Source of the DNA: a virus
Length of the DNA: 49,198 nucleotides
Strand: one strand, 5' to 3'
Virus record (IMG/VR): IMGVR_UViG_3300014491_000005
Location: 1 to 49,198 of that record
Positions 1 to 49,140 of the stretch are shown here, piece after piece. The notes beneath the pieces are model-generated. The model saw only the letters and a list, made by a program, of their open reading frames with translations. It made no database searches and had not been told where the DNA came from. The stretch's first letter is position 1. Each line of letters opens with the position of its first letter. The translations under genes and the position numbers were made by a program.

Positions 1-165
1 AGGATAGCGGACGATGCGCCGGACGCGAACTCGGAGCAGCAAGCTGGGCCCCGGGTGCGTCTGCGTGACCCCGCGCCGGGACGCCGTCTAGCCTTGTGCC
101 ATGCCCGCAGAGTCCTCGTTCGATGTGTCGTGTAAACGACGCATTACGTATACAGAGGACAGGCA

Positions 166-2529: not shown

Positions 2530-2585
2530 AGGCCGGGTACGGGAATGAGTCAGGTCACGGGAAACGCGGGATGAGCGGGGCCGTG

Positions 2586-2945
2586 TCAGCCGGCGGGAGT
2601 GCCGACGAGCGCCCCGAGGTCGACCGTGGCCGGTGTCGACGGCAGGAAGAACGACCACGGGTCCTGGTCGACGCCGGCCACGGTGATCTGCACGGTCCAG
2701 AACCAGAAGCCCGTCAGGCCCTCGACGGTGACGGGGCTGTCGGTCGGCAGGAGCCGTAGCGGGCCACCGGAGGAGCTGAGGAGCTGCCCCCCGGTGATCG
2801 CCGCGAGGACGGGGGTGTCTGCCTGGAGCACGGGCACACCGGAGGCGTAGACGCTCGCGGACGGCGTGAACGTCGCGGTCCCGTTCAGCGGCTCTCCCGA
2901 GCCGTCTTCCCAGGTGCCGGTGATGGTGACGTAGGTCAGCGACAT
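2586..2945 (-). CDS. Small beta-rich tail-associated protein
   Basis: A 119-residue protein starting MSLTYVTITGTWEDGSGEPL and containing alternating beta-strand patterns ending in ATVDLGALVGTPAG. The composition and opening resemble small actinophage tail-fibre or receptor-binding accessory proteins with an immunoglobulin-like or carboxypeptidase-regulatory fold, but I can name no family with certainty. It is flanked on both sides by hairpin terminators (2505-2529 and 2967-2988), making it a single-gene segment inserted between lysin and peptidase genes. Confidence 0.65.
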   Translation of the reverse strand: MSLTYVTITGTWEDGSGEPLNGTATFTPSASVYASGVPVLQADTPVLAAITGGQLLSSSGGPLRLLPTDSPVTVEGLTGFWFWTVQITVAGVDQDPWSFFLPSTPATVDLGALVGTPAG

Positions 2946-2966
2946 GGCCTATCCCCCAGGCATGCG

Positions 2967-2988
2967 AAAGCCCCGGCACGGGCCGGGG
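2967..2988 (-). terminator. Intercistronic hairpin (weak terminator)
   Basis: On the minus strand CCCCGGC/GCCGGGG pair across a four-base loop and are followed by CTTTCGCATGCC. The T-tract is short, so partial termination or RNA stabilisation is likely. Confidence 0.5.
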
Positions 2989-3001
2989 CGTGGGCGGGTC
3001 T

Positions 3002-3898
3002 TTATCGGGTCAGCGTGACGGTGATGGTGGCGTGCGGCGGCCCGGCTGGGGCACCGTTGGCCCACAGGTGCGTTTCGTACCGGCCAGCGGGCAGGCCCTT
3101 GCCGGTGGGCCCGTATTCGGACGCCCCGGTGCCGGTGACCGTCTGGTGGCTGGCCAGCTCGCCGGCCGCGTCATAGGTGAAGACGCTGTACCCGGTGGGC
3201 TTCTGGCCGGACGGGCCGGTCACCGGCTCCCAGACCAGCGTGTAACCGTCGCGGGTCTGCTTCACGACGTGCAGGCCGGCAGGTTCCGGGAACGTCCAGC
3301 CGGTGTAGCCCGCGATCCACGAATCGAGGTCCGCCGTGGTGCCGTTGAAAGCGTCCGCGTCGACGCCGCCTTCGGTCCCCCACTGCCAGAAACGCCAGGT
3401 CTTCCACTTCGCCGGGGCCCACTGGGACGGGCCGGGCGCAGAAGAGGAAGGCCATGCCACCCACAGGTCATAGTGCCCGGAGGTGGCCACGAGGGTCTTG
3501 GCGACGTCCAAGTCCGTGTAGGCGACGATGGGGTGCTGCGGGCCGGCGAGGGACCGGACCTTGTCGCACCACGCCTTCACGTCCGCGTCGGTGACACCGG
3601 GATAGTCGGACGCGACGACCGCGAGGATGTCACCCGGCCTTAGCCCGCCGTTGGCCTTGATCGCATCCACGTAATAGGTGCCCTGCGCGGTTGCGGACGC
3701 CGATCCGACGAGTTCGTGGTAGCCGCCGCGAGGTTTCCCCCACGACCCGAGGACCGCCCAGTTGCGGGCCAGGTGCGGGTCGATTTCCGTCAGGCCGTTC
3801 GTGACCTTGGTGAACGCGAAGCTAAGGCCGCTCAGGTCCGCGGCGGTGAGCGGGGCCTGATAGGCGCTGTAGTCGCGGCCTTCCGCGCTGGCGGTCAT
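3002..3898 (-). CDS. GH25-type endolysin with C-terminal Fn3-like domain
   Basis: A 298-residue protein. Residues 5-195 follow the GH25 muramidase layout: GRDYSAYQ (D9), AFTKVTNG, GGYHEL (58-63), an interior strand GDILAVVASDY (89-99) and the closing W-rich segment FWQWG (170-174) with DADAFNG. Residues about 205-298 look like a fibronectin type III domain (YTLVWEPVTGPSG, TGYSVFTYD). GH25 enzymes cut the MurNAc-GlcNAc bond. The usual DxE pair is not present in the expected strand: alignment by eye puts A96 and D98 there, so activity may be altered. The start overlaps the DUF1003 gene as ATGA, indicating coupled lysis genes. Confidence 0.78.
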   Translation of the reverse strand: MTASAEGRDYSAYQAPLTAADLSGLSFAFTKVTNGLTEIDPHLARNWAVLGSWGKPRGGYHELVGSASATAQGTYYVDAIKANGGLRPGDILAVVASDYPGVTDADVKAWCDKVRSLAGPQHPIVAYTDLDVAKTLVATSGHYDLWVAWPSSSAPGPSQWAPAKWKTWRFWQWGTEGGVDADAFNGTTADLDSWIAGYTGWTFPEPAGLHVVKQTRDGYTLVWEPVTGPSGQKPTGYSVFTYDAAGELASHQTVTGTGASEYGPTGKGLPAGRYETHLWANGAPAGPPHATITVTLTR

Positions 3899-4341
3899 GG
3901 TTGCTCCTTGATGGGTGCGGTCCCGGCGGGGTCACCGTCCGGGGCGTCGATGGGCACGCCGAGCAGCTGGCAGACCCGCATGGTCAGCGCGCGGTCGGCG
4001 CGGATCTCGGTGAGAGCGGCCTCGTTGACCTCGTAGTCGTGTTCGGCTTTCAGCCGGTCCCGTTCAGCGGCGCGGTTCTGCGACAGCAGGATCAGCGGCG
4101 CGGCGTAGGAGGCCTGCGTGGAGAAGATCAGATTCAGGAGGATGTACGGATACCTGTCGAAGTGGATCGCGTCTGTGAGTGCGAGCGTGTTCAGGGCGAG
4201 CCACGCGACGATAAAGGCCGTCATCCAGGCGATGAACCGTAGCGACCCAAAGAACGTCACGAAGCGATCAACCGCTCGGTCCACGCGCGAGGGATTGTCG
4301 TAGAGCGCCTGATTGACGGGGTGGCGATGAACAGCAGTCAC
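3895..4341 (-). CDS. DUF1003 family membrane protein
   Basis: A 148-residue protein with two closely spaced transmembrane helices (FIAWMTAFIVAWLALNTLAL and YILLNLIFSTQASYAAPLIL) followed by the DUF1003 signature SQNRAAERDRLKAEHDYEVN. I place the start at the GTG at 4341 because AGAGGGGG lies just upstream and the longer frame would run into the divergent nuclease gene. It ends in an ATGA overlap with the lysin gene. DUF1003 proteins are uncharacterised inner-membrane proteins; position immediately before the lysin makes a holin or holin-regulator role plausible, which is inference. Confidence 0.8.
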   Translation of the reverse strand: MTAVHRHPVNQALYDNPSRVDRAVDRFVTFFGSLRFIAWMTAFIVAWLALNTLALTDAIHFDRYPYILLNLIFSTQASYAAPLILLSQNRAAERDRLKAEHDYEVNEAALTEIRADRALTMRVCQLLGVPIDAPDGDPAGTAPIKEQP

Positions 4342-4371
4342 CCCTACCCCCTCTCTTGCTAGAATTAGAAC

Positions 4372-4971
4372 GTGAAGGCGAATACAGCCGATGATCTGCA
4401 TGCAGGCTTCAAACGGGCCGCCAACGGATGCCTCGAATGGACGCGAGGGCGATTCGAGAAGGGGTATGGAGCCTTCACCTATCAGGGCAAGCTCTGGCGC
4501 ACACACCGCCTGGTGTGGACCTTCGAGCACGGCCCGATCCCGCCAGGGGCCGAGATCCTGCACCACTGCGACAATCCACCGTGCGGCGACATAACCCACC
4601 TATTCGATGGCTCGCAGTCCGACAACCTCTATGACATGTACGGCAAAGGACGGCAGTCACCGCGCCATGGACGCTACGAGCGCACTGCGGCTCATCGCGC
4701 TGCGCTTCGCGCGTTCCGGATGAGCGAGAGCGAGGCCAAGTACGGTGCCGGTGTGCCCCGCTCGGGTGAGCCGGCCGAACTACCCCAGCGCGTTCCTCCG
4801 TCCGTACCGCCAGGCACTCCCCTTGCCGAGCTGACGTGCGTGATCTGCGCTCAGCGTTTCCTAGTGCCGGTGACGCTCGTCAAGCGGTACTCAGCATGCG
4901 GTGATAGGTGCTCGGCGGTACGACGCCGGCTTGCCCGTTCGTCCTCAGCAGCACCCCTGCGACCTGCTTGA
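4372..4971 (+). CDS. HNH endonuclease (plus strand, in lysis region)
   Basis: A 199-residue protein. Residues about 40-95 contain the HNH_3-type motif seen in phage homing enzymes: THRLVW, then GAEILHHCDNPPC, then THLFDGSQSDN with D-M-x-x-KGR. The C-terminus adds a treble-clef-like segment with CVIC and CGDRC. It is transcribed against the surrounding late genes, divergent from DUF1003 with 30 bases between the starts, and abuts the end of the VIT-like gene. This arrangement is typical of a mobile intergenic nuclease. Start ATG or GTG near 4372 (ACGTGAAGGCG) has no clear ribosome binding site, so expression may be weak. Confidence 0.82.
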   Translation: MKANTADDLHAGFKRAANGCLEWTRGRFEKGYGAFTYQGKLWRTHRLVWTFEHGPIPPGAEILHHCDNPPCGDITHLFDGSQSDNLYDMYGKGRQSPRHGRYERTAAHRAALRAFRMSESEAKYGAGVPRSGEPAELPQRVPPSVPPGTPLAELTCVICAQRFLVPVTLVKRYSACGDRCSAVRRRLARSSSAAPLRPA

Positions 4972-4987
4972 GGCGGCTGCCAGCGGC

Positions 4988-5452
4988 TTACGCCGTGCTC
5001 CCGATCCACAGGTCACACGCGATGGTGACGATCAGGACGACGGCGAGGATCGCGAACGTCTGCCCGACGATCACCCACCGCTGACCCGGGCCTGCTTCCC
5101 GGAGGAATGCGACCAGCCCGGCGATGACGACGCACACGCCGGCGGCGCATGCCAGCGCCGCGGCGCCGGAGGTGAACGCCCACGGAACAGCAGGGGCGGC
5201 CCCGCCGATGACGGTGGCCCCGAACATGACTGCCGCGCCGGGCAGGCGGGTGTCGGTGTCGGCCGACATGAAGTCCCCGGCCGCCATGCTCACCCCGGAG
5301 GAGATCGCCCCGGACAGCGCGGTCGGAAAGATCAGCTTCGGATGCGTGACCAGCAGGTAGCCAACGACGCCGAGCAGCGACATCATGCCGTCGCTGCCGC
5401 CGAACACGGCGCGGCGCGCAGCCGGGCCCTTGATCAGCGCCCGGAGCTTCAC
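4988..5452 (-). CDS. VIT1/CCC1-like membrane protein
   Basis: A 154-residue integral membrane protein. The N-terminal half reads like the VIT/CCC1 iron-manganese transporter family: FGGSDGMMSLLGVVGYL (compare the family's G-x-x-DG-x-x-x-x-LG helix) and LSGAISSGVSMAAGDFMSA (the family's G-x-x-S-M-x-x-G-x-x-x-S helix). Three further helices follow (around residues 72-92, 96-117 and 127-149). It lacks the long cytosolic metal-binding helix normally found between helices 2 and 3. The GTG start overlaps the previous stop as GTGA. Transport of divalent metal, or use of the compact bundle as a holin, are both inference from family and location. Confidence 0.68.
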   Translation of the reverse strand: MKLRALIKGPAARRAVFGGSDGMMSLLGVVGYLLVTHPKLIFPTALSGAISSGVSMAAGDFMSADTDTRLPGAAVMFGATVIGGAAPAVPWAFTSGAAALACAAGVCVVIAGLVAFLREAGPGQRWVIVGQTFAILAVVLIVTIACDLWIGSTA

Positions 5453-6216
5453 TGGCCGTCCTCCGCGTCCTGCCGGGCGAACGCCTGCCGGGCCAGGTCG
5501 TCGTCTTCGGGCAGCACCAGCCGCCGCCCGGCCGCCAGCGCCATCCGGTGCTCGGCGTGCAGCGCCGAACCGGGCGCCGACCACAGGACATGCACCCGCC
5601 GGTCCCCTGACCCGCGTGGAGCGACCGGTACGACCGCGTGAGCGTGCCCGTCCCGGTCGGTGACCCACAGCTGAAAGTCGCCTCGAGTAAAGGTCTGGAT
5701 TTCGGTGATCGGGGCCGGGTAGTGGTGGACACCGCCGCCGTGCGGCAAGACGCCCGTATGGAGTTCCGCTGTGAGCGGCACGCTGGCGTTGCAGATCGAG
5801 TCGGTCCACCGGGCGATACCGGCCGCGTCCACGATGGGCGTGTCGAGCAGTTCACGGATGCCCAGCTCGCGGACAGCGTCCGGAAAGCCGGCGTAGATCC
5901 GGCGGGCGTTGACCCGGAGCTCGTCGACCCGGGCGGGGTCGGCGCAAAACTGGCTAGCCCACTCGATACCCGCCAGGTTGCGGGCCAGGAACCACCCGTC
6001 GTCGTCGAGGAGCCACAGGCCGCCGCCGTGATGGTCCTGGTATGGCGGGGGCCCGTAGTAGAAGCCGTGGACTTCCCGGGCGATGCGGTTCATCGTCGCG
6101 CGGGACTGCTTGTACTCCGGGGAGTCGGTGCGGGGCGGGTGATCGGGGATCTCGATCTCCCACGGATGGTCTTCCTGCTCGGTGTGCGTGGAAGGTGGCA
6201 TGCCGGTACGGCTCAT
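5449..6216 (-). CDS. Conserved hypothetical protein
   Basis: A 255-residue soluble protein opening MSRTGMPPSTHTEQEDHPW and containing IEIPDHPPRTDSPEYKQSR, a stretch I associate with an uncharacterised actinobacterial family (perhaps DUF6424; name from memory). It is rich in Trp and His (HGFYYGPPPYQDHHGGGLW, HVLWSAPGSALHAEHRM) without a recognisable catalytic motif. The ATG at 6216 follows AAAGGAGG at seven bases, which decides the start over an upstream GTG. It overlaps the VIT-like gene as GTGA, so both are probably co-translated. Role unknown. Confidence 0.72.
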   Translation of the reverse strand: MSRTGMPPSTHTEQEDHPWEIEIPDHPPRTDSPEYKQSRATMNRIAREVHGFYYGPPPYQDHHGGGLWLLDDDGWFLARNLAGIEWASQFCADPARVDELRVNARRIYAGFPDAVRELGIRELLDTPIVDAAGIARWTDSICNASVPLTAELHTGVLPHGGGVHHYPAPITEIQTFTRGDFQLWVTDRDGHAHAVVPVAPRGSGDRRVHVLWSAPGSALHAEHRMALAAGRRLVLPEDDDLARQAFARQDAEDGQ

Positions 6217-6290
6217 CGCCACCCCTCCTTTCTGGTGGAGTGGCGGATGGGCCGCGGGCAGCGGCTACGGGCGGGGGATTGTGCGGGCGG

Positions 6291-6644
6291 TCAGCCGGCG
6301 GGCGTGTTCCCGCCGGTCAGGAACATGCTCGCGATCATGATCGCGATCATGGCCACCGACAGGATGGTCGGGATCAGCCACCGCCGCCATTCACTGCGCC
6401 AGGCGACGTGGTTATGCGCGCGGTCAAGTTCGCCCTGGATCTGGGCCAGGTGCAAGTCGTGGGCGTCGACCTTCTGCTGCAACGCCGCAAGGTCGCCCTT
6501 GTCGGCTTTCAGCGCGAGCAGGTCGAACAAACGGTCGAGCTTGTTGGTGATGTCGGCCCGCATCTCCGTGAGGATGTCCTTCACGGAATAGGCGATCACC
6601 GGCTCGTCGCCCAGGTGGCGGCGGTCGTGGTTGTCGTCTTCCAA
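6291..6644 (-). CDS. Coiled-coil protein with C-terminal membrane anchor
   Basis: A 117-residue protein: a helix-forming region (VKDILTEMRADITNKLDRLF, LKADKGDLAALQQKVDAHDL) followed by one transmembrane helix near the C-terminus (WLIPTILSVAMIAIMIASMF). This tail-anchored coiled-coil architecture is common next to actinophage lysis genes and is often labelled holin or minor membrane protein. I choose the TTG at 6644 because AGAGGGGAGG precedes it; the open frame extends further upstream without a good ribosome binding site. Confidence 0.65.
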   Translation of the reverse strand: MEDDNHDRRHLGDEPVIAYSVKDILTEMRADITNKLDRLFDLLALKADKGDLAALQQKVDAHDLHLAQIQGELDRAHNHVAWRSEWRRWLIPTILSVAMIAIMIASMFLTGGNTPAG

Positions 6645-6751
6645 CCTCGGCCTCCCCTCTTGGTAGGTCACTGGTAGCTGCGGTTCCTGCGGGAGCTTCG
6701 CCCCCACAGGCCGGGATGCGAACAAAACAGCAGGTCAAGTAGAGGCGTGGA

Positions 6752-8185
6752 TCAGAACGGGAACGCCAGAAGCGGGCCGCTTCCTTGCGCCGTTGGCTTC
6801 CGCAACTGGAGTGCGGCCAGGCCGATCGACCCGGTACCGGTGATGTTGGTGCCGCCTGGCTGTCCGGGCGTGAACGCGCCTGGTTGCGCCAGGCCCGGTA
6901 CGGCGGTGAACGACACCGATGCCGGGGCTACTGGCGGGTTTTCCGTCCCGGCCATCCCGGGCGTGGCCAGCCCGGCGCTGCCGGACGTGGTGATCGGCCC
7001 GGTCGGCATGCTGGCGGTCCCGGCCATGCCGAGCGTCCCGGCTTGGACGCTGCCGGTGGCGGTGTAGGGCCCAGTCGTTCCGGTCCCGGCCACGCCGGGT
7101 GCTGCGAGGCCCATGGTGCCGGTGGTGGTGAACGGGACAGCGACGGTCCCGGACGCGGCCAGGCTGGGCAGGGCGGCCGAGCCGCTGGCGCCGGTCGTCC
7201 CCGATTCGCTGGCTGTCCCGGCCATGCCAGGCGCGGCCAGGGCCGCCGATCCTGAACTGGTGACCGGGTTCGCGACCGTCCCTGTCGCGGACATGACCGC
7301 CGCGGGCGGGCCGGTGGTGCCGGTGCTGGTGAACGGGACGTTGCCCGTTCCGGCCGCGCCAGGCGTGGCCAGCTCGGCGCTGCCCGAGCTGGTGACCGTG
7401 TTCGTGACCGTGCCGGTGCCATTCAGGCTGGCCGTAGACAGCCCGGCTGTCCCGCTGCTGGTGAACGGGACAGCGACGGTCCCGGACACGCCCAGCGCCG
7501 CGAGGCCCGCGCTGCCGGTGCTGGTGAACGTCGTGGGCACCCGGGCGATCCAGATGCCGTTCGCCGAGTCCCCGGACGAACTGATGGCGATCAGTTTCGT
7601 CCAGGTCAGGCTTGTGGAATCGGAGACGGTGATGGTCTGGGTGCCCGACGCGCCGGACGAGTTCGGCGCGACGATCGCGACCAGGAGGGCGCCGGACGGC
7701 GGCGTGAACGACGCCGTGGTGACCGTTTCCGCTGTGGTGGTGTAAGCCACGGCCGGAGTCGACGAGTCCTCAGCCAGCGATGACCCGGCCGCGACCAGGA
7801 TCTCGGCTAGTACCAACTGGATCGCGTCGGCGCTGAAACCAGTAGGTGCGCTCGCGCCTACGGTGACCGCAGTGCCGCCAGTCGTCGTCGCCGACGTGCG
7901 GCCGGTGCCGTACGTGGTGGGGTTACCGGCCTGGTTGACGTTCTCGCGCAAGGTCGTCGCACCGTTGGCGGTGAACGTGCTGCTGCTGCCGTACGCCGAG
8001 ATCGAGGCGTAGACCCATGACCCGGTGGCGTTGGGTGTGATGCTCAACTGCGGTGTGGTGATGGTGACTGAGCTGCCTGTCTTGCCGTTCTGGGTGGCCG
8101 CCGCCCCGGTCACGACCCGGACATCGAGGGCGATGCCGTTCATATCGCCGGAGCCGCCCTGCGTGGCGGTGACCGTCATGGCCAT
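6752..8185 (-). CDS. Repeat-rich tail fibre protein
   Basis: A 477-residue protein. Residues 1-215 form a beta-rich head domain starting AMTVTATQGGSGDMNGIALD that is clearly paralogous to the N-terminus of the GH16 protein encoded at 9339-11435. From about residue 217 to the end there are about eleven degenerate units of 21-27 residues with the pattern TSSGSAGLA-x-x-G-x-AGT, low in charge and rich in G, S, T and A. Two copies of the same unit occur in the neighbouring fibre protein. The repeats probably build an extended fibrous shaft. No catalytic motif or chaperone domain is visible. Ribosome binding site GAGAGG precedes the ATG. Confidence 0.75.
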   Translation of the reverse strand: MAMTVTATQGGSGDMNGIALDVRVVTGAAATQNGKTGSSVTITTPQLSITPNATGSWVYASISAYGSSSTFTANGATTLRENVNQAGNPTTYGTGRTSATTTGGTAVTVGASAPTGFSADAIQLVLAEILVAAGSSLAEDSSTPAVAYTTTAETVTTASFTPPSGALLVAIVAPNSSGASGTQTITVSDSTSLTWTKLIAISSSGDSANGIWIARVPTTFTSTGSAGLAALGVSGTVAVPFTSSGTAGLSTASLNGTGTVTNTVTSSGSAELATPGAAGTGNVPFTSTGTTGPPAAVMSATGTVANPVTSSGSAALAAPGMAGTASESGTTGASGSAALPSLAASGTVAVPFTTTGTMGLAAPGVAGTGTTGPYTATGSVQAGTLGMAGTASMPTGPITTSGSAGLATPGMAGTENPPVAPASVSFTAVPGLAQPGAFTPGQPGGTNITGTGSIGLAALQLRKPTAQGSGPLLAFPF

Positions 8186-8256
8186 GCGTGATCACCTCTC
8201 TGCCGGGGCTGGCTGCCGCTCCTTTCCCGGGGCCAGGCCCACTCCCCCGGTGCCGG

Positions 8257-9342
8257 TCAGCCGATCGCGTAGGCGACCGTGCTCGCGTCGGCGCCATTGC
8301 TTGAGGTGATGGTGAACGACACGCCTGGGACACGGGCCGAGACCCGCAGCCATCCGGGGGTGCCGCCGTCTGCCTGGCTGGTCAGGTAGATCAGCGAGTT
8401 GGCGGTGATCGTGGAGCAGGTGACGGTCGCTGTCCCCCCGGACAAGACCGTGGTCCCCCGGACCGCCTGCAACGCCTTCAGCGACGCCCGTGAGACCACC
8501 TGTACGACGGTGAATCCGGCCCCGTGAGCGACCGGTGCCGCGCCGTCCGCGCCGCGGGTCACCGTCCACGTCTGGGAACCGGTCCCGCCTGGGCAGGCGG
8601 TGATGAGGAATATCTCGGACGGGGCGACCGGATCCGCAGCGTAGAAGAACGTCTGCGGGGTGCCGCTGGGCGATGCGGCAGCGAACGGCACCGACACGAA
8701 CACCGTCCACGTTTCCACAGTGCCCGCGGGCGGCGCATCGGTCCCGCCGGAGGTCACCACCCCGGCCGGGATGTCCGCGAACACTTCCATCTGCGGCGGG
8801 ATCACGCCACCGGACGCGGCCAGTGCGGCCAGGGCCGCCGAGCCGGTGGAAGTGACCGGGACGACGGGGCCGCCCGCACCGGACGCGCTCAGCGCGGCCA
8901 GGGCCGCCGAGCCGGTGGAAGTGACCGCGCCCGCGGCTTCGGTGCCGCCGAGGACCTCGACGGCGAGGATCGTGTACTGCATCGACGGGGCGGACAAGCC
9001 GACCGTCTGCGCCCCGGCCGCCCCAGCGTCGGGGTAATAGGCGACGTAGGCGGCGTATTCCGACGCGCTGTAGGAGTACACCTGCTCGTACCCATTGCCG
9101 GCGCTGGGCGTGACCCCGTTGACCGTCAGCCAGGCCCGCGAGCTGCCGTTATTGGCGTCGGCGTCCAGGACCAGGACGGCAATCGCTGAATGGTTCTGGG
9201 TGGTGGTGATGGTCAGCGACGGCGCGCCAGATCCGGTAGCCGACGCCGAAGCCCCGGTCCCGGGCGACCCGGAGAACGCCAGGGCGATGTCACCCCATAG
9301 GCCAGTGCCGCTGCTGGACTCCGACAGCGCGTAGCCGGTCAT
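8257..9342 (-). CDS. Minor tail / fibre-tip protein
   Basis: A 361-residue protein. Residues 1-135 form a beta domain (YALSESSSGTGLWGDIALAF); two copies of the VTSTGSAALAAL repeat follow (about 138-180); then the module VFADIPAGVVTSGGTDAPPA with TWTVTRGADGAAPVAHGAGF, common in actinophage tail proteins; the C-terminus (TVLSGGTATVTCSTITANS) resembles the small beta-sandwich tips of phage fibres. I set the start at the ATG at 9342 because it overlaps the previous stop as ATGA. Likely part of the adsorption apparatus. The repeat is shared with the 477-residue neighbour, evidence of module exchange. Confidence 0.75.
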   Translation of the reverse strand: MTGYALSESSSGTGLWGDIALAFSGSPGTGASASATGSGAPSLTITTTQNHSAIAVLVLDADANNGSSRAWLTVNGVTPSAGNGYEQVYSYSASEYAAYVAYYPDAGAAGAQTVGLSAPSMQYTILAVEVLGGTEAAGAVTSTGSAALAALSASGAGGPVVPVTSTGSAALAALAASGGVIPPQMEVFADIPAGVVTSGGTDAPPAGTVETWTVFVSVPFAAASPSGTPQTFFYAADPVAPSEIFLITACPGGTGSQTWTVTRGADGAAPVAHGAGFTVVQVVSRASLKALQAVRGTTVLSGGTATVTCSTITANSLIYLTSQADGGTPGWLRVSARVPGVSFTITSSNGADASTVAYAIG

Positions 9343-40614: not shown

Positions 40615-41199
40615 TTACACGGCGGGCGTTCCAATGTCACGCTCTGGAGGTTTGCCGGCCGGTGAGCCACCGGCATTTTCGTCACGTTCGGTTACAGGAT
40701 CAGGGTCCGGGCCGAAACTGTCAGCCGCCACACTCAGCGCCTCACCGAGACGGCCGAGCAGCGACCGCGCACCAGCCGAACCATCACCAGCGTCGATGTC
40801 CGACAGCTTCGCGGCCTTGTCGATACAGATCCCGATGCTCGTATAACCCGACTGCTGATCCCGCAACGGCGGCATCTTCGTCGTCACCAGCTCCGCACCC
40901 AGCGGCCCGGACACGATCTGCGTGTACGGATCCCACGCACGCGCCCGGAACCGCTGAGCATCCCGCAGCAGATCCTCAACCAGCTGCGCACGGGCAGCCT
41001 TCGCGTCGAAAATCCTTGCGCGCGTGGCTTTCTCCGTCTGCGACCGGTCGAAGGCGGACTTGAGTCCTTCGTCGGCTGCGATTTTCGTGACGGTGCTGCC
41101 TGAGACGTCGTGTGCTCGGGCTATCTCGTTGCGCTGTTTCCCGGCTTTGATGTCGGCGAGGATCGCTGCCCGTTTCCTGGGGTCGAGGGCCTTGGGCAC
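40615..41199 (-). CDS. HTH protein, possible small terminase
   Basis: A 194-residue protein: a helix-turn-helix of the resolvase/terminase type at 8-45 (RAAILADIKAGKQRNEIARA, DVSGSTVTKIAADEG), a coiled-coil middle (AQLVEDLLRDAQRFRARAWD) and an acidic, disordered C-terminus. Small terminases bind pac/cos DNA with such a domain. The neighbouring gene encodes a P27-type protein, so this may be a second packaging or regulatory DNA-binding protein. Confidence 0.72.
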   Translation of the reverse strand: MPKALDPRKRAAILADIKAGKQRNEIARAHDVSGSTVTKIAADEGLKSAFDRSQTEKATRARIFDAKAARAQLVEDLLRDAQRFRARAWDPYTQIVSGPLGAELVTTKMPPLRDQQSGYTSIGICIDKAAKLSDIDAGDGSAGARSLLGRLGEALSVAADSFGPDPDPVTERDENAGGSPAGKPPERDIGTPAV

Positions 41200-43180: not shown

Positions 43181-43214
43181 TTGACTATGTTTATGCGGCA
43201 CACTAACTTAGTCA
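43181..43214 (+). promoter_or_regulatory. Early promoter/operator, copy 1
   Basis: -35 TTGACT (43181-43186), 17-bp spacer, -10 TAACTT (43204-43209). TGACTATGTT and AACTTAGTCA form the inverted repeat with one mismatch. Sits in the divergent control region upstream of the first early unit; the palindrome could also serve the minus-strand late arm. Confidence 0.85.
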
Positions 43215-43252
43215 TAGCCGATACAGCAATGATTCTACAGGAGGTTCACAGC

Positions 43253-43315
43253 ATGACATCCGACCAGGCGGCCCAGCTCCGCAGGACCGCCGCCCGGCCC
43301 CGGCTGGCCCGGTAA
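43253..43315 (+). CDS. 20-residue leader peptide
   Basis: ATG at 43253, eight bases after AGGAGG, one of the best ribosome binding sites here. The product TSDQAAQLRRTAARPRLAR is basic. Its stop overlaps the next start as TAATG, so it probably couples translation of the following 48-residue gene. No family; a leader-peptide role is inference. Confidence 0.55.
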   Translation: MTSDQAAQLRRTAARPRLAR

Positions 43316-43461
43316 TGGCTCAGCACTGGACAGACATGCGGCCCAGCGACTTCGACGCCGCGGAACCCCTGACTCTCTTCGGCCCCGACGCCACCGACAA
43401 CAGCGGCCAGCCCGCCGCGCCCGACAAGTGCGGCACGCCCGACCTATTCACAGAGGAGTAG
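43315..43461 (+). CDS. 48-residue acidic protein
   Basis: ATG in TAATG overlap with the leader peptide, TAG four bases before the next gene. Sequence AQHWTDMRPSDFDAAEPLTL, then FGPDATDNSGQPAA, ending GTPDLFTEE, a motif I associate with small streptomycete phage proteins. Acidic. Function unknown. Confidence 0.6.
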   Translation: MAQHWTDMRPSDFDAAEPLTLFGPDATDNSGQPAAPDKCGTPDLFTEE

Positions 43462-43465
43462 TCCG

Positions 43466-43960
43466 ATGACCATCACCGCCGCCCCCCGCCCCATCAGCTG
43501 TGCGCAGCGTGTCTGGCTCCGTGTCCTGCGGGTGCCGAACCCGGAGCAGCTGGCCCGCCTCGACGACCTGGCCGTCGCCGAGCTGTACGCCCGCAAGGGA
43601 CACCGGCGCATCGTCGACGAACTGATCTATGACGAGTTCGAGCGCCGCGACCGCGCCGAGAAGGCACGCCGGAAGGCGGAAGCCAGGCGGGAGCGCGCCG
43701 AAGCCCGCAAGCGCGAGCGGCGCGAGGAGTACGACATGTACGTCCAGGCCGCGTGGCTGAAAGCCGAAGCGGACTGCCGCGGGGAGCTGCTGTCCAAGGC
43801 CGGCGACGAGGCCGGCGTCGACCCAATCACGCTGTGGTCCGGGCCTGTCCAGCGCGCACGGAAGCTCGCGTCTGAGGAGCTGTGCGAGTGGTGGGACACG
43901 CACGGCCGCTGGACCTACACCGAATGGCAGCGGCGCTCCCGCCAGCAGGCGGCCGCCTGA
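43466..43960 (+). CDS. 164-residue coiled-coil hypothetical
   Basis: GAGGAG precedes the ATG. A folded N-terminus (CAQRVWLRVLRVPNPEQLAR, DELIYDEFERRDRAEKARRK) leads into a highly charged helix (AEARRERAEARKRERREEYD), then a Trp-rich C-terminus (CEWWDTHGRWTYTEWQRRS). Typical early actinophage protein of unknown role; basic helix suggests nucleic-acid or protein binding. Confidence 0.7.
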   Translation: MTITAAPRPISCAQRVWLRVLRVPNPEQLARLDDLAVAELYARKGHRRIVDELIYDEFERRDRAEKARRKAEARRERAEARKRERREEYDMYVQAAWLKAEADCRGELLSKAGDEAGVDPITLWSGPVQRARKLASEELCEWWDTHGRWTYTEWQRRSRQQAAA

Positions 43961-44060
43961 TCTCCGTCTGGCTCCTGGCAGCTGGCCAGCGGCGTGCCCC
44001 TGGCGCGCTCTGGCGAACCGCCCAGTAGTCCCGCAACCACTCCCCCTGGAAGGAACCAGC

Positions 44061-44540
44061 ATGCTCACCGTTACGGCCGGCGCGACGTTCGTCTTCGACG
44101 AGGCCAAGGCCCGCGCCTGGCTTGACCGCGGGATCCAGCAGTACAACGAGGGCCGGTACGACGACGCCGACGACTTCCGGCAGCTCCCGGACGTCCAGGC
44201 GGATTGGCGCGCGGACTACCAGGAGCCCGGCGACATCGCCGCGCTCGTGCACAAGGCCGTCCATGCGGGTGTGATCGAGCTGCCCGTCCGGGCCTACGGC
44301 GACGGCATCGGCATGATCTTCGAGCATGACCGCGCTGGCACACTGGCCTACCGGTACATCGCGGAGGTCGCCAGTTCCGTACGGCTGTCACTCGTGTCCT
44401 ACGCGAAGGCCTTCGTCAACATCGGCGAGCCCTGCACGGTGGGTGCAGACGCGGCCCTGGCGGTCCTGGCCGAAGCGGTCGAGGCCGTGAACAACCTGCT
44501 CGCCGACCTTGACCAGCACATCGCGGCGGTGGCGGCATGA
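44061..44540 (+). CDS. 159-residue hypothetical protein
   Basis: GGAAGGAACCAGC precedes the ATG. Mixed alpha/beta protein (FVFDEAKARAWLDRGIQQYN, EPGDIAALVHKAVHAGVIEL, GDGIGMIFEHDRAGTLAYRY). No motif I can name. Overlaps the next gene by ATGA. Confidence 0.68.
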   Translation: MLTVTAGATFVFDEAKARAWLDRGIQQYNEGRYDDADDFRQLPDVQADWRADYQEPGDIAALVHKAVHAGVIELPVRAYGDGIGMIFEHDRAGTLAYRYIAEVASSVRLSLVSYAKAFVNIGEPCTVGADAALAVLAEAVEAVNNLLADLDQHIAAVAA

Positions 44541-45208
44541 CCGACGTCCATGCGGTCGCGGCGGCCACCGCGAAGGAGCTGGGCGACGGCTGGAAGGCCT
44601 CGCCGGGCGCGCATTGCCGGGCAGCGTTCATCCGGCATAAGGACGGCCGTGGAGTGTTCATCCTGCAATCACACAGAACGCGCGGGCGCCTGCTGATACA
44701 CGGGGTCTATCCGCCTGAGTGGCGCGGCCTGCCGTACGGCGATCACCGGCCCGAGATCACGGTCAGCCCGGACCGGCCCGCGCGAGGGATCGCCGGGGAC
44801 ATCAAAGGACGGCTACTGCCCCGGTACGAACCGCTCCTTGACCGCGCCCGTAGTGAAGTCGCCTCCGAGATCGCTCAGCTGGCACGCCGGGATGAGGTAG
44901 TGGAATCGATACGGGCGGCATTCCCGGATTCGTGGACGGGAACGGGCCACACGTGGAACAGCGTGAGCATCCATCCGCGAGGGCTCGGGCTCGCCAGCGC
45001 GATCGAAGTCGCCTACGACGGCGAGACGACGCTGCACCTGAATCATGTGTCGGCAGATTGGGCGGTAAGGCTGGCTACGGCTGTGCAGCTGGCACAGGGC
45101 ACTAGCGGCCGGCCCGGACCGGAGGCCCTAGACGGTCGGGAACGGCCTAGGACGGTCACTACGGCCCTGCGGAGGGCACTGCGGCCGGCACTCCCACGGC
45201 ACAGCTGA
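44537..45208 (+). CDS. 223-residue hypothetical protein
   Basis: ATGA-coupled to the previous gene. Sequence includes KELGDGWKASPGAHCRAAFI, RGRLLIHGVYPPEWRGLPYG, PRYEPLLDRARSEVASEIAQ and a C-terminal Arg/Pro-rich tail encoded by DNA with repeated ACGGCC/ACGGTC words. Last gene of the first early unit; a strong terminator follows. Confidence 0.68.
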   Translation: MTDVHAVAAATAKELGDGWKASPGAHCRAAFIRHKDGRGVFILQSHRTRGRLLIHGVYPPEWRGLPYGDHRPEITVSPDRPARGIAGDIKGRLLPRYEPLLDRARSEVASEIAQLARRDEVVESIRAAFPDSWTGTGHTWNSVSIHPRGLGLASAIEVAYDGETTLHLNHVSADWAVRLATAVQLAQGTSGRPGPEALDGRERPRTVTTALRRALRPALPRHS

Positions 45209-45229
45209 CAGACAGCTAGGGACGGCCCA

Positions 45230-45264
45230 GCCTGCCCGGTAGACGGCACCGGGCAGGCTTTTTT
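45230..45264 (+). terminator. Early terminator 1
   Basis: Perfect 11-bp stem GCCTGCCCGGT/ACCGGGCAGGC with a seven-base loop and six T residues. Ends the first early unit and insulates promoter copy 2. Confidence 0.9.
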
Positions 45265-45281
45265 GTGCCTCTGATCAGGCA

Positions 45282-45309
45282 GGACAAAGTTTCCTGAGAT
45301 TCTTTGTCC
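45282..45309 (+). promoter_or_regulatory. Dyad upstream of promoter copy 2
   Basis: GGACAAAG and CTTTGTCC are perfect inverted arms around 12 bases, ending nine bases before the -35. The surrounding block is conserved in front of copies 3 and 4 (with weaker dyad), absent at copy 1. Candidate activator or second operator site. Confidence 0.55.
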
Positions 45310-45317
45310 TATTTATA

Positions 45318-45351
45318 TTGACTAAGTTTTGGCGGCACGGTAACTTAGTCA
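45318..45351 (+). promoter_or_regulatory. Early promoter/operator, copy 2
   Basis: -35 TTGACT (45318-45323), 17-bp spacer, -10 TAACTT (45341-45346). TGACTAAGTT and AACTTAGTCA are perfect 10-bp inverted arms spanning both elements. A GGGGG/CCCCC hairpin follows in the transcript leader (45361-45377). Confidence 0.88.
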
Positions 45352-45401
45352 TATCGGCACGGGGGAACACGGCCCCCGGCCACATCCGAGAGGGGAACCC
45401 A

Positions 45402-46124
45402 ATGACCAGTGTCCGTACCGAAGCCGACCAGGCCGCGGACCCGAACCTCGAAAGGATCCGCAAGGCGCTCCTCCTGGCCCAGGACGAGGGTGCCACCGAA
45501 GGCGAGCGTGAGCAGGCAAACCGGATGGCGGCCAGGCTCGCGGCCAAGTACGGGATCGACATGGCCATGGCATCGGCGAACAGGCCGGCCGGGCACGCCG
45601 ACGAGATGGTGCTCAAGGAGTTCGGGATCGACTCCGACTTCCCCGCGCTCGACCAGCGTCTCCTGTCTGTGCTGATGCGGAGCATGGGCTGCCAGTGCAT
45701 CCGCACCAACGGCGACCATGAGCTGAGCGTGGTCGGCTACCCGTCCGACATTGCCGCCGCCGAGGTGCTGTACGTCTCGCTCGGACTCCAGATGGTCTCC
45801 GGTGTCATCAAGGTCGACGGCGACCACGAAAAGCGCAAGGGCTGGATGCTCGGTTTCATCGACGCGGTGGCCGTGCGCTGCGAGGAGGCCCGCCGCGCGG
45901 CCAAGGGCGATGCGGACAGCACCAGCGACGGCGGGGCTTCCCTGGTCCTGGCCAGCCGCGAGCTGGCCGTGATCAAGGCTTTCGACGCCGAGTTCCCGAA
46001 CCGGGTCAAGAGCCGCGCCCGGCGGTTCGACTACTCCGCTTACGGTGCGGGTGCTGCGGCTGGCCGGCGGGCCACCATGGGCGGCACTTCGGTCGACGCG
46101 AGCGGCCAGAAGGCCCTGACCTGA
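45402..46124 (+). CDS. DUF2786 protein
   Basis: A 240-residue protein. Residues about 15-55 (LERIRKALLLAQDEGATEGE, QANRMAARLAAKYGID) are the DUF2786 helical motif. Downstream are SVLMRSMGCQCIRTNGDHEL, VLYVSLGLQMVSGVIK and an Ala/Gly-rich tail. DUF2786 proteins are common in actinophages and actinomycetes; function unknown, often near DNA-metabolism genes. Start ATG 45402 follows GAGAGGGG, which decides against an upstream start inside the promoter region. Confidence 0.82.
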   Translation: MTSVRTEADQAADPNLERIRKALLLAQDEGATEGEREQANRMAARLAAKYGIDMAMASANRPAGHADEMVLKEFGIDSDFPALDQRLLSVLMRSMGCQCIRTNGDHELSVVGYPSDIAAAEVLYVSLGLQMVSGVIKVDGDHEKRKGWMLGFIDAVAVRCEEARRAAKGDADSTSDGGASLVLASRELAVIKAFDAEFPNRVKSRARRFDYSAYGAGAAAGRRATMGGTSVDASGQKALT

Positions 46125-46141
46125 ATCGCTTCCCCTCTCGG

Positions 46142-46175
46142 ATCGCCCCGGCGGGCTGCCTGCCGGGGCGATTTT
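46142..46175 (+). terminator. Early terminator 2
   Basis: 11-bp stem ATCGCCCCGGC/GCCGGGGCGAT with a nine-base loop and a short T-tract (ATTTTC). Ends the DUF2786 unit. Confidence 0.78.
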
Positions 46176-46239
46176 CGTGTGCGCGGGCGGCGCGCGGTGG
46201 GCAGTTGGCGGCGGCCTGGTCGGTGCCCAGCTGGCCAGC

Positions 46240-46420
46240 TGGGACGGCCCAGCGGCCCAGCGGCCCAGGGACGGCCCAGAGGCCAGGGACGGCCTAGGGA
46301 CGGCCCAGAGGCCAGGGACGGCCCAGAGGCCAAGGGGCGGCCCAGGGACGGCCCAGAGGCCAGGGACGGCCCAGAGGCCAAGGGGCGGCCCAGGGACGGC
46401 CCAGAGGCCAGGGACGGCCC
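46240..46420. repeat. GC-rich tandem repeat array (48-bp unit)
   Basis: Two full 48-bp units (46304-46351, 46352-46399) plus an 18-bp partial unit (46400-46417), preceded by degenerate copies from 46240. Each unit contains GAGGCCAGGGACGG, GAGGCCAAGGGGCGG and CAGGGACGG sub-units. It is noncoding as far as I can see, lying between terminator 2 and promoter copy 3. Candidate protein-binding array (origin or partition-like) or simple minisatellite. Confidence 0.85.
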
Positions 46421-46479
46421 GATCTGTCTAGCCACTGATCAGGCAAGACAAAGTTTTTAGATTCTTTGCTGTATCTGAC

Positions 46480-46513
46480 TTGACTAGGTTTATGTGGCAC
46501 GATAACTTAGTCA
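46480..46513 (+). promoter_or_regulatory. Early promoter/operator, copy 3
   Basis: -35 TTGACT (46480-46485), 17-bp spacer, -10 TAACTT (46503-46508). TGACTAGGTT and AACTTAGTCA form the inverted repeat with one mismatch. GGGG/CCCC leader hairpin at 46524-46536. Serves the DUF932 gene. Confidence 0.87.
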
Positions 46514-46562
46514 TATCGGCACAGGGGAACGGCCCCGGGCCACAGGCAAGAGGAGACAGTAA

Positions 46563-47591
46563 ATGCCCGACGCAGTGGAAATCTTCGAGGACGGCAGCGC
46601 CGGATTCGCGGCGGCCCGCAAGCCGGCCTGGCACCGGCTCGGAACGATCTTCGAGGACCAGGACGCCATGACCGCGGAGCAGACGCTCACCGCGGCGAAG
46701 CTCGCCGGGTGGGACGTGCGCAAGCAGCCGATCACCTCGACCGACAACTTCGGCAACGGCCCGGTCACGCTGACCGTCCCCGACACCTATGCCGTGTGGC
46801 GCACCAATCCCGTCACCAGTAAGCCGCAGCTGCTCGTCAACGGCACGGTCGGCAAGGTGTGGGATCCGTTTCAGAACGAGGAGATGACCGACTTCCTTGA
46901 CGCGGTGAGCTATGAGTCCGGCGCGGGCTTCGAGACCGCCGGGTCGCTGAGCGACGGCCAGGACGTGTTCGTCACGATGCGCCTGCCCGAAGCGATCAAG
47001 GTCGGCGGGGTCGACGCCATGGATCTCTTCCTCGCGGCGCACAACAACCACACCGGTAGAAAGTGCCTGGTGCTGTCGGTCGGCGCGGTCCGGATTGTCT
47101 GCAAGAACACCCAGGACCTTCACATAGCGTCCGCGAAGTCGACCTTCAAGATCCGGCACACGGCCGGGATGCGGGACGGTGCGGTCGCGGAGGCCCGTAA
47201 GGCCCTGGCTCTGTCCATGGAGTACGTCGACGCCTTGCAGGACGAGGCCGACCGGATGATCAACGAGACGTTCACCGACGCCCAGTTCGAGAAGTTCATG
47301 ATCGAGATGTGCGGCGAGCGGCCGGGAGACGACGCGACGCCGAAGCAGGTCACGGCGTGGGAGGAGGAGGTCGGCTCGCTGCGGTGGCTGTTCCGCGAGT
47401 CCGAGACGCAGGCCGCGATCCGGAACACCAAGTGGGGTGCCTACCAGGCGGCCGTGGAGTACCTGGACTGGATGGCCCCGGTGCAGGCACGGAAGGGCGC
47501 CGACCCGGAGCTGGTGCGTGCCAGGCGAACCCTGAGCACCGACTACGCGAACCTGAAGCAGGGCGTGTACGAGATCCTTCAGGCGGCATGA
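46563..47591 (+). CDS. DUF932 (phage/plasmid-like) protein
   Basis: A 342-residue protein of the DUF932 / phage-plasmid-like family: FAAARKPAWHRLGTIFEDQD, DTYAVWRTNPVTSKPQLLVN, GKVWDPFQNEEMTDFLDAVS, FLAAHNNHTGRKCLVLSVGA, RIVCKNTQDLHIASAKSTFK. Members are widespread in phages and plasmids and are abundantly expressed, but no biochemical function is established; some are annotated as putative homologues of a plasmid replication or recombination locus. GGAGACAGTAA precedes the ATG. Single-gene unit between promoter copy 3 and a terminator. Confidence 0.9.
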   Translation: MPDAVEIFEDGSAGFAAARKPAWHRLGTIFEDQDAMTAEQTLTAAKLAGWDVRKQPITSTDNFGNGPVTLTVPDTYAVWRTNPVTSKPQLLVNGTVGKVWDPFQNEEMTDFLDAVSYESGAGFETAGSLSDGQDVFVTMRLPEAIKVGGVDAMDLFLAAHNNHTGRKCLVLSVGAVRIVCKNTQDLHIASAKSTFKIRHTAGMRDGAVAEARKALALSMEYVDALQDEADRMINETFTDAQFEKFMIEMCGERPGDDATPKQVTAWEEEVGSLRWLFRESETQAAIRNTKWGAYQAAVEYLDWMAPVQARKGADPELVRARRTLSTDYANLKQGVYEILQAA

Positions 47592-47612
47592 TGGCGGCCA
47601 GCGCGACGGGCG

Positions 47613-47642
47613 CCCTCAGCGAGGTTTCCTCGCTGAGGGTTT
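47613..47642 (+). terminator. Early terminator 3 (weak T-tract)
   Basis: CCCTCAGCGAGG and CCTCGCTGAGGG make a perfect 12-bp stem with a three-base loop, followed by TTT. Ends the DUF932 unit or attenuates reading into the next gene. Confidence 0.72.
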
Positions 47643-47659
47643 CCCCGTATCCTGATCAT

Positions 47660-48193
47660 ATGAACATTGACCTAGTTGCCGTTCCGGAGGAGCTGCCCGA
47701 GAACCTGGACGACCTCGCGGACGACGTGCTCATCACGCCGGTCGTGTGGGCGCACCTACAGGGCGGTGTGAAGCACACGTCGGTTCTGTCGGTGAAGGCC
47801 AGGTCGGACGCGCGGCGCGGCACCCCTGACGAGCGGCCGGGCGACATGCCCGCGGCTTCGCCGACGCGGCTCGGGCAGACGCCGACGTGGACGATGGGTG
47901 CTTTCCGGGCGTGGGATGCTGCGCGGCCGGGCAAGGGCAAGGGTGGCGGCCGGCCGGCTGGCGGGCGCGCGGACAGCCGGGACCGGATCATGTCGCCGTT
48001 CCCGTTCCCCTGCCCGCATTGCGGCGAGCCGGTCACTCAGGAGCAGGCAGAGGTGGCGTACGCGGCGGCGCAGGCCGGGGCAGCTGAGGCTGCGGCCGGA
48101 CGGCCGGCGGCTAAGCGGCCGGCACGGTCTAAGGCACCTGCCAGCGGTCCGGGCGGCCGGAAACGGCCCAGGACGGCCAGTGCGGACCGGTAA
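47660..48193 (+). CDS. 177-residue protein with zinc motif, possibly leaderless
   Basis: N-terminus NIDLVAVPEELPENLDDLAD, then ITPVVWAHLQGGVKHTSVL, a mid basic region, PFPCPHCGEPVTQEQAEVAY with one C-x2-C, and a basic Ala/Pro-rich tail ending RPRTASADR. No ribosome binding site precedes the ATG; TATCCT lies six bases upstream and could be the -10 of a leaderless mRNA, a common actinomycete arrangement. No family recognised. Confidence 0.66.
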   Translation: MNIDLVAVPEELPENLDDLADDVLITPVVWAHLQGGVKHTSVLSVKARSDARRGTPDERPGDMPAASPTRLGQTPTWTMGAFRAWDAARPGKGKGGGRPAGGRADSRDRIMSPFPFPCPHCGEPVTQEQAEVAYAAAQAGAAEAAAGRPAAKRPARSKAPASGPGGRKRPRTASADR

Positions 48194-48250
48194 GCCGGGA
48201 GGCCAGCGGAAGACATCCGAGAGACAGAGACGGCCAGAGACGGCCGGGGA

Positions 48251-48289
48251 GAGCCTGCCAGGCAGATGATGCCGGGCAGGCTCTTTTTT
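48251..48289 (+). terminator. Early terminator 4
   Basis: GAGCCTGCC and GGCAGGCTC form a 9-bp stem with an interior loop that can pair further, followed by six T residues (48284-48289). Confidence 0.85.
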
Positions 48290-48342
48290 ATGCCCTCTGA
48301 CCAGGCAAGACAAATTTTCTTAGATTCTTTGCTATATCTGAC

Positions 48343-48376
48343 TTGACTAAGTTTTAATGGCACGGTAACTTAGTCA
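48343..48376 (+). promoter_or_regulatory. Early promoter/operator, copy 4
   Basis: -35 TTGACT (48343-48348), 17-bp spacer, -10 TAACTT (48366-48371). Perfect 10-bp arms TGACTAAGTT and AACTTAGTCA. The AGATTCTTTG block upstream is shared with copies 2 and 3. Confidence 0.88.
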
Positions 48377-48420: not shown

Positions 48421-48690
48421 ATGATCCGTCTCGCCTTCCTCACCGGCCTCGCAGCCTTCCTCCCCGAGAACCACCCCTACCGGACCGCGCTGGCCGTCGC
48501 CCGCAGCGCCCGGCAGCTGGTCAAGGTCGGCGGGATCTCCGGTGCCGAGGCGATCCGCGAGGTCCTGGGCGGCCTGACGGTGGCTGACCTCCGCGCGGTC
48601 GCCCAGGCGACCCGGGTCGAGGTCCGGCGCGGCCGGAAGTCGGCGATAGTCAGCCAGCTGGTCGACGCCCTGTGCCCGGCGCGGGCCTGA
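48421..48690 (+). CDS. 89-residue SAP-like helical protein
   Basis: N-terminus IRLAFLTGLAAFLPENHPYR, then helices AEAIREVLGGLTVADLRAVA and RRGRKSAIVSQLVDALCP. The last part resembles a SAP or HeH DNA-binding motif (L-x-x-L-x-x-x-A-x-x-x-x-x-x-x-x-G-x-K-x-x-L-V-x-x-L). Possibly an early regulatory protein. Preceded by promoter copy 4 and GGAGCC. Confidence 0.65.
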   Translation: MIRLAFLTGLAAFLPENHPYRTALAVARSARQLVKVGGISGAEAIREVLGGLTVADLRAVAQATRVEVRRGRKSAIVSQLVDALCPARA

Positions 48691-48735
48691 CCGGGCCCGC
48701 GCGCCCCCACCCGAGCGAACACGGAAGGAAACACC

Positions 48736-49140
48736 ATGACTGCGACCAGGCCGGATTGGCTGTACGGGCCGAAGGGCGCTGCGCTCAGCCCCGAAGAGGA
48801 CATGCGGGCACGGTGGCAACCCAGCGAGGCCGCCGTGCGGCACGCGCGGGCCCTGCTCGACGCGGAGCCGCGGGCCGACCTGGCGGCGATCCCCATGATT
48901 CAGCCGGGCAAGGCGCACGGCTGGTGGACGGCCGGCCAAGAGGTCCGGACTGTGGCCGGTGCCGTGTTCATCGGCGTCAACCGGTTCGATGTCGAGGACG
49001 GGGCCGAGGTGCCTAGCTACAGCTGGGCCCGGAATGCCGCGAGCGACGTCGCCCGCGCCGCGCTCGGCGGCCAGCCCGGCACGGTGGCCTGGGCGACCGT
49101 TCACCGGGACGGCCACGCCGCGGTGTTCGAGGACTTCTGA
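48736..49140 (+). CDS. 134-residue hypothetical protein
   Basis: GGAAGGAAACACC precedes the ATG. Sequence TATRPDWLYGPKGAALSPEE, AAIPMIQPGKAHGWWTAGQE, NRFDVEDGAEVPSYSWARNA. No recognised motif. Second gene of the copy-4 unit; the window ends 58 bases later. Confidence 0.66.
   Translation: MTATRPDWLYGPKGAALSPEEDMRARWQPSEAAVRHARALLDAEPRADLAAIPMIQPGKAHGWWTAGQEVRTVAGAVFIGVNRFDVEDGAEVPSYSWARNAASDVARAALGGQPGTVAWATVHRDGHAAVFEDF

Follow-up and report, generated by a model that had tools for sequence, protein, structure and literature searches.

A repeated promoter-like element overlaid by an inverted repeat in the non-structural arm of an uncultivated, probably actinobacterial, virus

The closest described counterpart of the element reported here is the extended start-associated sequence (ESAS) of the cluster K mycobacteriophages (Adephagia, TM4, Anaya and Pixie), a 46-47 bp intergenic element, present in seven copies in Adephagia, that combines SigA-like hexamers 17-18 bp apart with an imperfect inverted repeat of 15-17 bp (PMC3203893, PMC11373665; published systems are cited here from the portions of the papers that deal with such repeats). 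These promoters have been suggested to be repressed via the repeat by a regulator that is probably different from the immunity repressor (PMC11373665). Neither that study nor a 2025 survey covering 188 genomes of cluster K names the regulator, and the survey asks once more for the ESAS to be tested functionally (PMC12699233). In the cluster O phages a 17-bp dyad recurs more than 30 times, in most cases not at a promoter; its authors presume that it binds a dimer and consider some function other than initiation likely (PMC4351075). Here we describe a multi-copy element, TTGACT-17-TAACTT overlaid by a 10-bp inverted repeat, in the IMG/VR record IMGVR_UViG_3300014491_000005 (49,198 bases, GC 68%), the whole of which is referred to below as the window.

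The leftward genes of this record include those for terminase, portal, capsid, tail and endolysin (PHROGs/Pfam scans), and a rightward non-structural arm begins near 43.2 kb. Among the matches listed for the large-terminase protein, the nearest are Streptomyces phages, at 57% identity. Judging by such sequence resemblance the host is likely a Streptomyces-like actinobacterium, and we are probably dealing with an uncultivated virus of soil actinobacteria. Two other IMG/VR contigs bear the motif: G001, with the same four copies as the window, and G002, with five, which reaches 634 bases beyond the right end of the window. Comparison of 4,338 and 1,989 bases of G001 and of 9,366 bases of G002 with the window showed 100% identity; we therefore treat the three records as a single virus, which leaves no independent comparison.

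Copies and anatomy of the element

A search of both strands of the window for TTGACT-N15..19-TAACTT gave four matches (at 43181, 45318, 46480 and 48343), against 0.00 in 100 dinucleotide shuffles; all are on the plus strand with a spacer of exactly 17 bp. An earlier note, made from the sequence alone, had listed these four sites, with a 10-bp inverted repeat over both boxes in the same register. Both observations are exact, the arms being present at all four sites with at most one mismatch, except that the family was under-counted by one: G002 carries a fifth copy at its position 25237 (TTGACTAAGTTTGTGTGGCACGGTAACTTAGTCA). Spacing and orientation within the arm are the same in 5/5 copies.

The inverted repeat, TGACTAAGTT-N13-AACTTAGTCA, is perfect in three of the five copies and has a single mismatch in the other two. 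Its right arm, AACTTAGTCA, is identical throughout; the left arm has one deviating base at 43181 (TGACTATGTT) and at 46480 (TGACTAGGTT), and none at 45318 and 48343. From the -35 hexamer onward the five copies also have in common TTGACTA, GTTT, GGCAC (the spacer word already noticed earlier, which is invariant) and TAACTTAGTCATA. In the half-site TGACTAAGTT the -35 core TGACT runs straight into AAGTT, which is the -10 core in reverse complement, so that in 10/10 dyad pairs one hexamer base is paired with one base outside the hexamers. Because half of each pair lies outside the hexamers, promoter constraint alone cannot explain the dyad. The half-site centres are 23 bp apart, about two helical turns; the longest perfect arm is 10 bp and the best imperfect extension 12/14. 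Symmetry is broken by an invariant T at positions 1, 12, 24 and 35, and the opposite strand reads as ATGACT-17-AAAC(T/C/A)T, poorer than the forward reading; we infer that the polarity of the element is built into its flanks.

The conservation evidence comes from paralogous copies inside one genome. Mean pairwise identity among the five drops from 0.97 in the arms to 0.70 across the spacer, 0.60 over the 15 upstream bases and 0.33 in the leader, and conservation therefore tracks the dyad. When the hexamers were held fixed and the other bases permuted, a perfect 10-bp arm arose in 0, 1 and 0 of 2000 permutations of the three perfect copies.

All four window copies are intergenic, between called open reading frames (ORFs), with 37-49 nt from the presumed start to the first gene (n=4), and the structural arm has none. 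The 80 bp round each site have 34-41% GC, compared with 68% for the genome. A weight matrix made from the five sites, which match it by construction, found nothing else above 0 in the window except the same sites read backwards, and nothing besides the known sites, on either strand, in 6,176 bp of G001 (1,977 of them outside the window). We rejected a role for the dyad as an intrinsic terminator or RNA hairpin, since a T-run is lacking and the presumed start comes only after it. Folding of the leader RNAs of the four window units is no better than that of shuffles.

In 4/5 copies (three of the four in the window, and the fifth) the element is preceded by an upstream box, CAGGCANGACAAANTTT then AGATTCTTTG, which is absent at 43181. 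The distance to the -35 is always 21 bases for AGATTCTTTG and 40-42 bases for CAGGCANGACAAANTTT; the box, which is A/T-rich, could be either a second regulator site or something like an UP element. GACGGCC-rich repeats adjoin the promoter cassettes just upstream, at 46241-46420 (arranged in tandem between units 2 and 3), near 45221 and at 48172-48239, with 18 copies on the plus strand of the arm as against 3 on the minus.

A candidate operator and the rival explanations

With respect to function, we think it fairly probable that these are co-regulated promoter-operators, at which a phage protein bound to the dyad blocks RNA polymerase. Each element would be the promoter of one member of a co-regulated set (at least five copies) and would drive a separate short unit of the non-structural arm, with a symmetric operator overlaying it between the -35 box and, roughly, the start point. 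A regulator encoded by the phage and bound to both TGACTAAGTT half-sites would cover the -35, the spacer and the -10 together and exclude polymerase, and such exclusion at every copy would switch all of the units together, while the T at positions 1, 12, 24 and 35 would set the polarity. The 23-bp half-site spacing would suit a single dimer whose heads are set far apart, or else a larger assembly that touches the DNA at two places. The components of this proposal differ in strength. The copies, the dyad and their position before genes and after hairpins are direct observations; that the element acts as a promoter is very probable, and that a regulator binding the dyad exists is quite probable. 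The sign of that regulation is less secure, repression being the fairly probable choice, and the start point and early timing of the units are inferred. What the earlier note had made of the dyad, a repressor site controlling an early arm, can thus be retained as a well-supported promoter family with a dyad and, reasonably, one regulator, with its repression and early timing at the lesser strength just given.

Several points weigh against the proposal. The two imperfect copies reach their observed longest perfect arm in 138 and 141 of 2000 of the same permutations, and these mismatch copies consequently show nothing on their own. There are no compensatory changes: the left arm varies and the right arm never does. 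Homogenisation of a duplicated cassette could mimic selection, all of the copies being from one virus. TTGACT has 5/6 of the bases of the consensus TTGACA and TAACTT has 3/6 of those of TATAAT, and a standard sigma-70 scan passed none of the four window sites; the earlier statement that promoter identity is seen directly was too strong. TAACTT fits the loose actinobacterial -10, TANNNT. A scan of the region for terminators found 3 sites, with 2.5 expected by chance. Finally, there is no clear regulator, integrase or repressor among the 43 distinct window ORFs scanned (PHROGs, Pfam or both). The sole regulator leads are the protein of 47660-48193, with its weak match to a 'DNA binding protein' PHROG (E 0.0012), and a sub-cut-off helix-turn-helix in the protein of 40615-41199. 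This is compatible with a regulator gene outside the window, as the earlier note had it; alternatively, an activator may be at work, or the window may hold a regulator that goes unrecognised.

It is unlikely, in our estimation, that the dyad is instead an activator site, where a phage or host factor on the half-sites or the upstream box would recruit polymerase to a weak -10 and the set would be switched on. Such a scheme would suit a TAACTT that has only half of the consensus bases and is missed by a consensus scan, and it would give a role to the AGATTCTTTG fixed at -21 from the -35 in 4/5 copies. The midpoint of the whole upstream box falls some 60 bp ahead of the presumed start, a distance at which upstream activators or the C-terminal domain of the polymerase alpha subunit (alpha-CTD) can act; this box, however, is absent at 43181. 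The dyad itself covers both hexamers, and activators seldom sit on the -10 and +1; moreover, 17 bp is the optimal spacer and leaves a MerR-like spacer-shortening mechanism nothing to correct. Somewhat less probable again is the absence of any dedicated regulator, the family being a young cassette of ~100 bp copied among intergenic gaps by recombination and the dyad an accident of the founding copy. The likeness does reach about 40 bp upstream, into the box, in 4/5 copies, and all of the data are paralogues of one virus. Nevertheless, the arms have remained 0.97 identical though spacer and leader have diverged (0.70 and 0.33), copy 1 has a dyad at 9/10 without having the upstream box, and a perfect 10-bp dyad round fixed hexamers appears in only 0-1 of 2000 permutations.

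The two remaining explanations have little in their favor. The palindromes might serve partition, packaging or, as iterons, replication, and lie in intergenic gaps only by chance, roles of the kind considered for the cluster O dyads, which are mostly off promoters (PMC4351075); but every copy here is fused in one register to a -35/-10 pair, in one orientation and before a gene, and the structural arm of the window is without one, and we hold this to be very unlikely. Most improbable of all is a stoperator-like roadblock, with the bound protein mainly halting elongation from upstream units. Copies 2-5 do lie downstream of another unit, and the R4-like phages are reported to have a repressor-stoperator system (PMC10276819), but the same four copies come after a hairpin, which leaves a roadblock little to add. 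In addition, the cluster A stoperators are asymmetric and, in the passages cited, not defined by promoter overlap (PMC4351075), whereas the present site is a 10+10 dyad that overlaps a promoter-like pair.

Transcription units and the search for relatives

The features of the arm are collected in Table 1. The proposed units were previously credited each with its own terminator. The promoter-like copies do precede genes, and there are hairpins at the unit ends; that of unit 4, which lies in G002, is T-poor. When the folds were compared with dinucleotide-preserving shuffles (200 each), four of the hairpins, which number five with the one inside unit 3, were matched by 0/200 and the remaining one by 1/200. 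The T-runs are uneven, and two of the three sites from the terminator scan are the unit 1 and unit 2 hairpins; its loop and T-run limits probably made the scan pass over the remaining ones. As the hairpins beat the shuffles but the scan shows no excess, the terminator claim rests on the hairpins more than on the T-runs. A promoter scan also gave a leftward promoter-like match at 43259-43232 (0.4 expected).

Table 1. Features of the rightward arm (window coordinates; promoter, operator and terminator functions are predicted)
Feature	Position	Strand	Remarks
Promoter-operator copy 1	43181..43214	+	dyad TGACTATGTT/AACTTAGTCA; opens the rightward arm, diverging from a leftward PAPS-reductase-like gene
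Unit 1 genes	43253..45208	+	20-codon leader ORF at 43253 (by eye); ORFs 43336-43461, 43466-43960, 44061-44540, 44537-45208
Unit 1 terminator	45229..45264	+	12-bp stem, six T
Upstream box, unit 2 cassette	45276..45306	+	CAGGCANGACAAANTTT..AGATTCTTTG, A/T-rich
Promoter-operator copy 2	45318..45351	+	perfect 10+13+10 dyad; upstream of DUF2786 gene
Unit 2 gene	45402..46124	+	DUF2786 protein (phrog_421)
Unit 2 terminator-like hairpin	46140..46174	+	four T
Upstream box, unit 3 copy	46440..46468	+	
Promoter-operator copy 3	46480..46513	+	left arm TGACTAGGTT, one mismatch; upstream of DUF932 gene
Unit 3 gene	46563..47591	+	DUF932 protein (phrog_1221)
Hairpin inside unit 3	47606..47648	+	past DUF932 gene; T-poor tail
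Unit 3 second gene	47660..48193	+	weak 'DNA binding protein' PHROG match, E 0.0012
Unit 3 terminator	48249..48289	+	stem, six T
Upstream box, unit 4 copy	48302..48331	+	
Promoter-operator copy 4	48343..48376	+	perfect dyad
Unit 4 genes	48421..49140	+	ORFs 48421-48690, 48736-49140; without family match (PHROGs/Pfam)

The earlier note had also proposed scanning the full phage and its relatives with the motif; IMG/VR pattern scans led to G001 and to G002 with its fifth copy and, partial patterns included, found no second virus with the element. A looser form of the palindrome matched 11 stretches in viral contigs, three from the same virus and eight with a different right arm. Outside the same virus the IMG/VR scans gave ten stretches, one place each, that read as chance: these eight together with L154 and L155. 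Both of the latter were rejected as relatives, L154 having no left arm and no match to the TTGAC..TAACTT pattern in its record, and L155 having no TAACTT and a locus of 40% GC. A search of IMG/VR with the DUF932 protein returned only contigs of the same virus, and distant DUF932 homologues are common in actinophages (468 records, all <60% identity). The exact 16-base palindrome pattern occurs in 115 stretches in 84,980 genomes, none of them actinobacterial by title. With the full element in 0/115 of these stretches, we rejected a common host-regulon operator for the genomes searched, the phage's own host chromosome not being among those tested. Many of the matches, in Gallionellaceae (L031-L145), represent a different dispersed stem-loop, CCAATGACTTGGTTGGCG..TTTGCCAACTTAGTCAGATGGC, seemingly unrelated to the phage and with no Rfam match at the one locus scanned (L036).

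Searched against phages and against plasmids, the cassette retrieved six records each, all with E = 3. Nineteen identical bases are shared by Streptomyces phage Goby (NC_054680, locus L146, 230-248; also Toma) and window 48294-48312; in both viruses they precede promoter-like sites, and in Goby and Toma they stand just upstream of a TTGACA; TCTGACCAGG is kept in 4/4 aligned Likavirus sequences, taken from the 86 records matching the Goby/Toma region (E = 3). This match is only a lead and not evidence. TTGAC.-16..18-TANNNT is absent from the right ends of Sonali, Mufasa8 and Abba that were examined, and occurs twice in that of the Gordonia phage CaiB, with a dyad of only 5/10 and 6/10. Among the matches listed in a literature text search with both half-site strings, none dealt, judging by its title, with a phage element of this kind. 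Within the reach of these searches, the sequence of the element itself appears to be new.

Some other observations concern the surroundings and the right arms of related phages. In G001, about 700-1,890 bases left of window position 1, there is an IS110-family transposase gene (PF02371, PF01548); either this contig may run into host DNA or the phage may carry an IS110 element. Near the endolysin gene, at 3895-6216, profile scans identified DUF1003, VIT-family and DUF6424 genes, which look like unusual phage cargo. Streptomyces phage Janus (NC_054660, locus L149) has, at 1483-8699 of the locus, eight type II hammerhead ribozymes (Rfam RF02276, above the gathering score), each within a gap between annotated right-arm genes, where they perhaps cut the transcript between cistrons. 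At 1193-6412 of its locus Goby has seven copies of a stretch resembling a tRNA T-arm (GGTTCGAGTCC flanked by short complementary arms), which lie within intergenic gaps or on their borders and have no Rfam match.

Comparison with other actinophage systems

Repeated operators read by one repressor are familiar from Streptomyces phages, although we compare them with the present element by description only. In phiC31 a single repressor acts on several copies of the 17-bp conserved inverted repeat (CIR) operator, early promoters included; the repressor-stoperator system of R4 likewise has one phage repressor on several operator copies (PMC10276819). Like the element described here, the cluster O 17-bp dyads and the 18-bp repeats of Microbacterium cluster EG are symmetric and concentrated towards the right, non-structural end, but they are compact, with 2-3 bp between the arms instead of 13 (PMC4351075, PMC7302621); the cluster EG copies lie 14-22 bp before start codons (PMC7302621). 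The SAS/ESAS of Microbacterium cluster EF are also repeated upstream elements before genes, and differ in being weakly conserved around GTAGAG and tied to an SAS resembling a ribosome-binding site, with no dyad mentioned in the portion cited (PMC7302621). CaiB (Sourvirus) offers a further parallel, with four copies of TTGCGC/TTGCCC-17-TAAGGT/TATAGT, an intergenic promoter-like repeat at 39, 1312, 1727 and 3752 of its locus, before right-end genes of which one is a DUF932 homologue. Its dyad, by eye, is centred on the -10 and has another sequence, whereas the present one spans from the -35 to +1.

The comparison with the cluster K ESAS is the closest. Its geometry in Adephagia was taken from the DNA of four upstream regions: those of genes 75 and 91 have perfect 17-bp arms, with TTGACA in the left arm and a right arm that starts inside TACTGT; that of gene 76 has arms of 15/17, and for gene 92 the element is cut by the 90 bases printed. 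Both elements have multiple copies, are intergenic and belong to the non-structural part of the genome (PMC3203893, PMC11373665), and in both the left arm holds the -35 and the right arm begins inside the -10. The SigA-like spacing of 17-18 bp has its equivalent in a spacer of exactly 17 bp in 5/5 copies, albeit with a weak -10 match (3/6), and the ESAS repeat that flanks the spacer, with 4-14 bp between its arms, is paralleled by a 10+13+10 dyad in register with both hexamers. The differences are nonetheless clear. The arms are 10 bp long and not 15-17 bp; by eye, the half-site has only TTGAC in common with TGTTGACATGCATACA of Adephagia; and the ESAS is paired with a 13-bp SAS, GGGATAGGAGCCC, at start codons, for which the present virus gave 18 matches at <=3 mismatches, with 19.4 expected, none of them before the first gene of units 1-4. 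The phage and host groups differ as well. In view of the half-site sequence, the arm length and the missing SAS, we do not file the element as an ESAS.

Considering their common geometry, the layout is nevertheless the same in kind, and the design has already been described in another phage cluster. The "undescribed regulon" of the earlier note is accordingly right about the sequence, within the range of the searches, and wrong about the design, since both the ESAS and its proposed repression are in print (PMC11373665). A doubtful but broader idea is that a self-mirrored promoter code, in which the regulator and polymerase would read the same letters and four invariant T's would give the polarity, is read by a regulator distinct from the immunity repressor and has arisen independently in several actinophage lineages (this virus, the cluster K ESAS and perhaps CaiB). 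With the present family, the few actinophage promoter families that have an inverted repeat over the promoter gain a further case, unrelated in sequence. Because two systems have the same geometry in different letters, this layout, with the -35 in the left arm and the edge of the -10 in the right, is the likely functional feature, and as such it is testable with reporters that do not need the phage.

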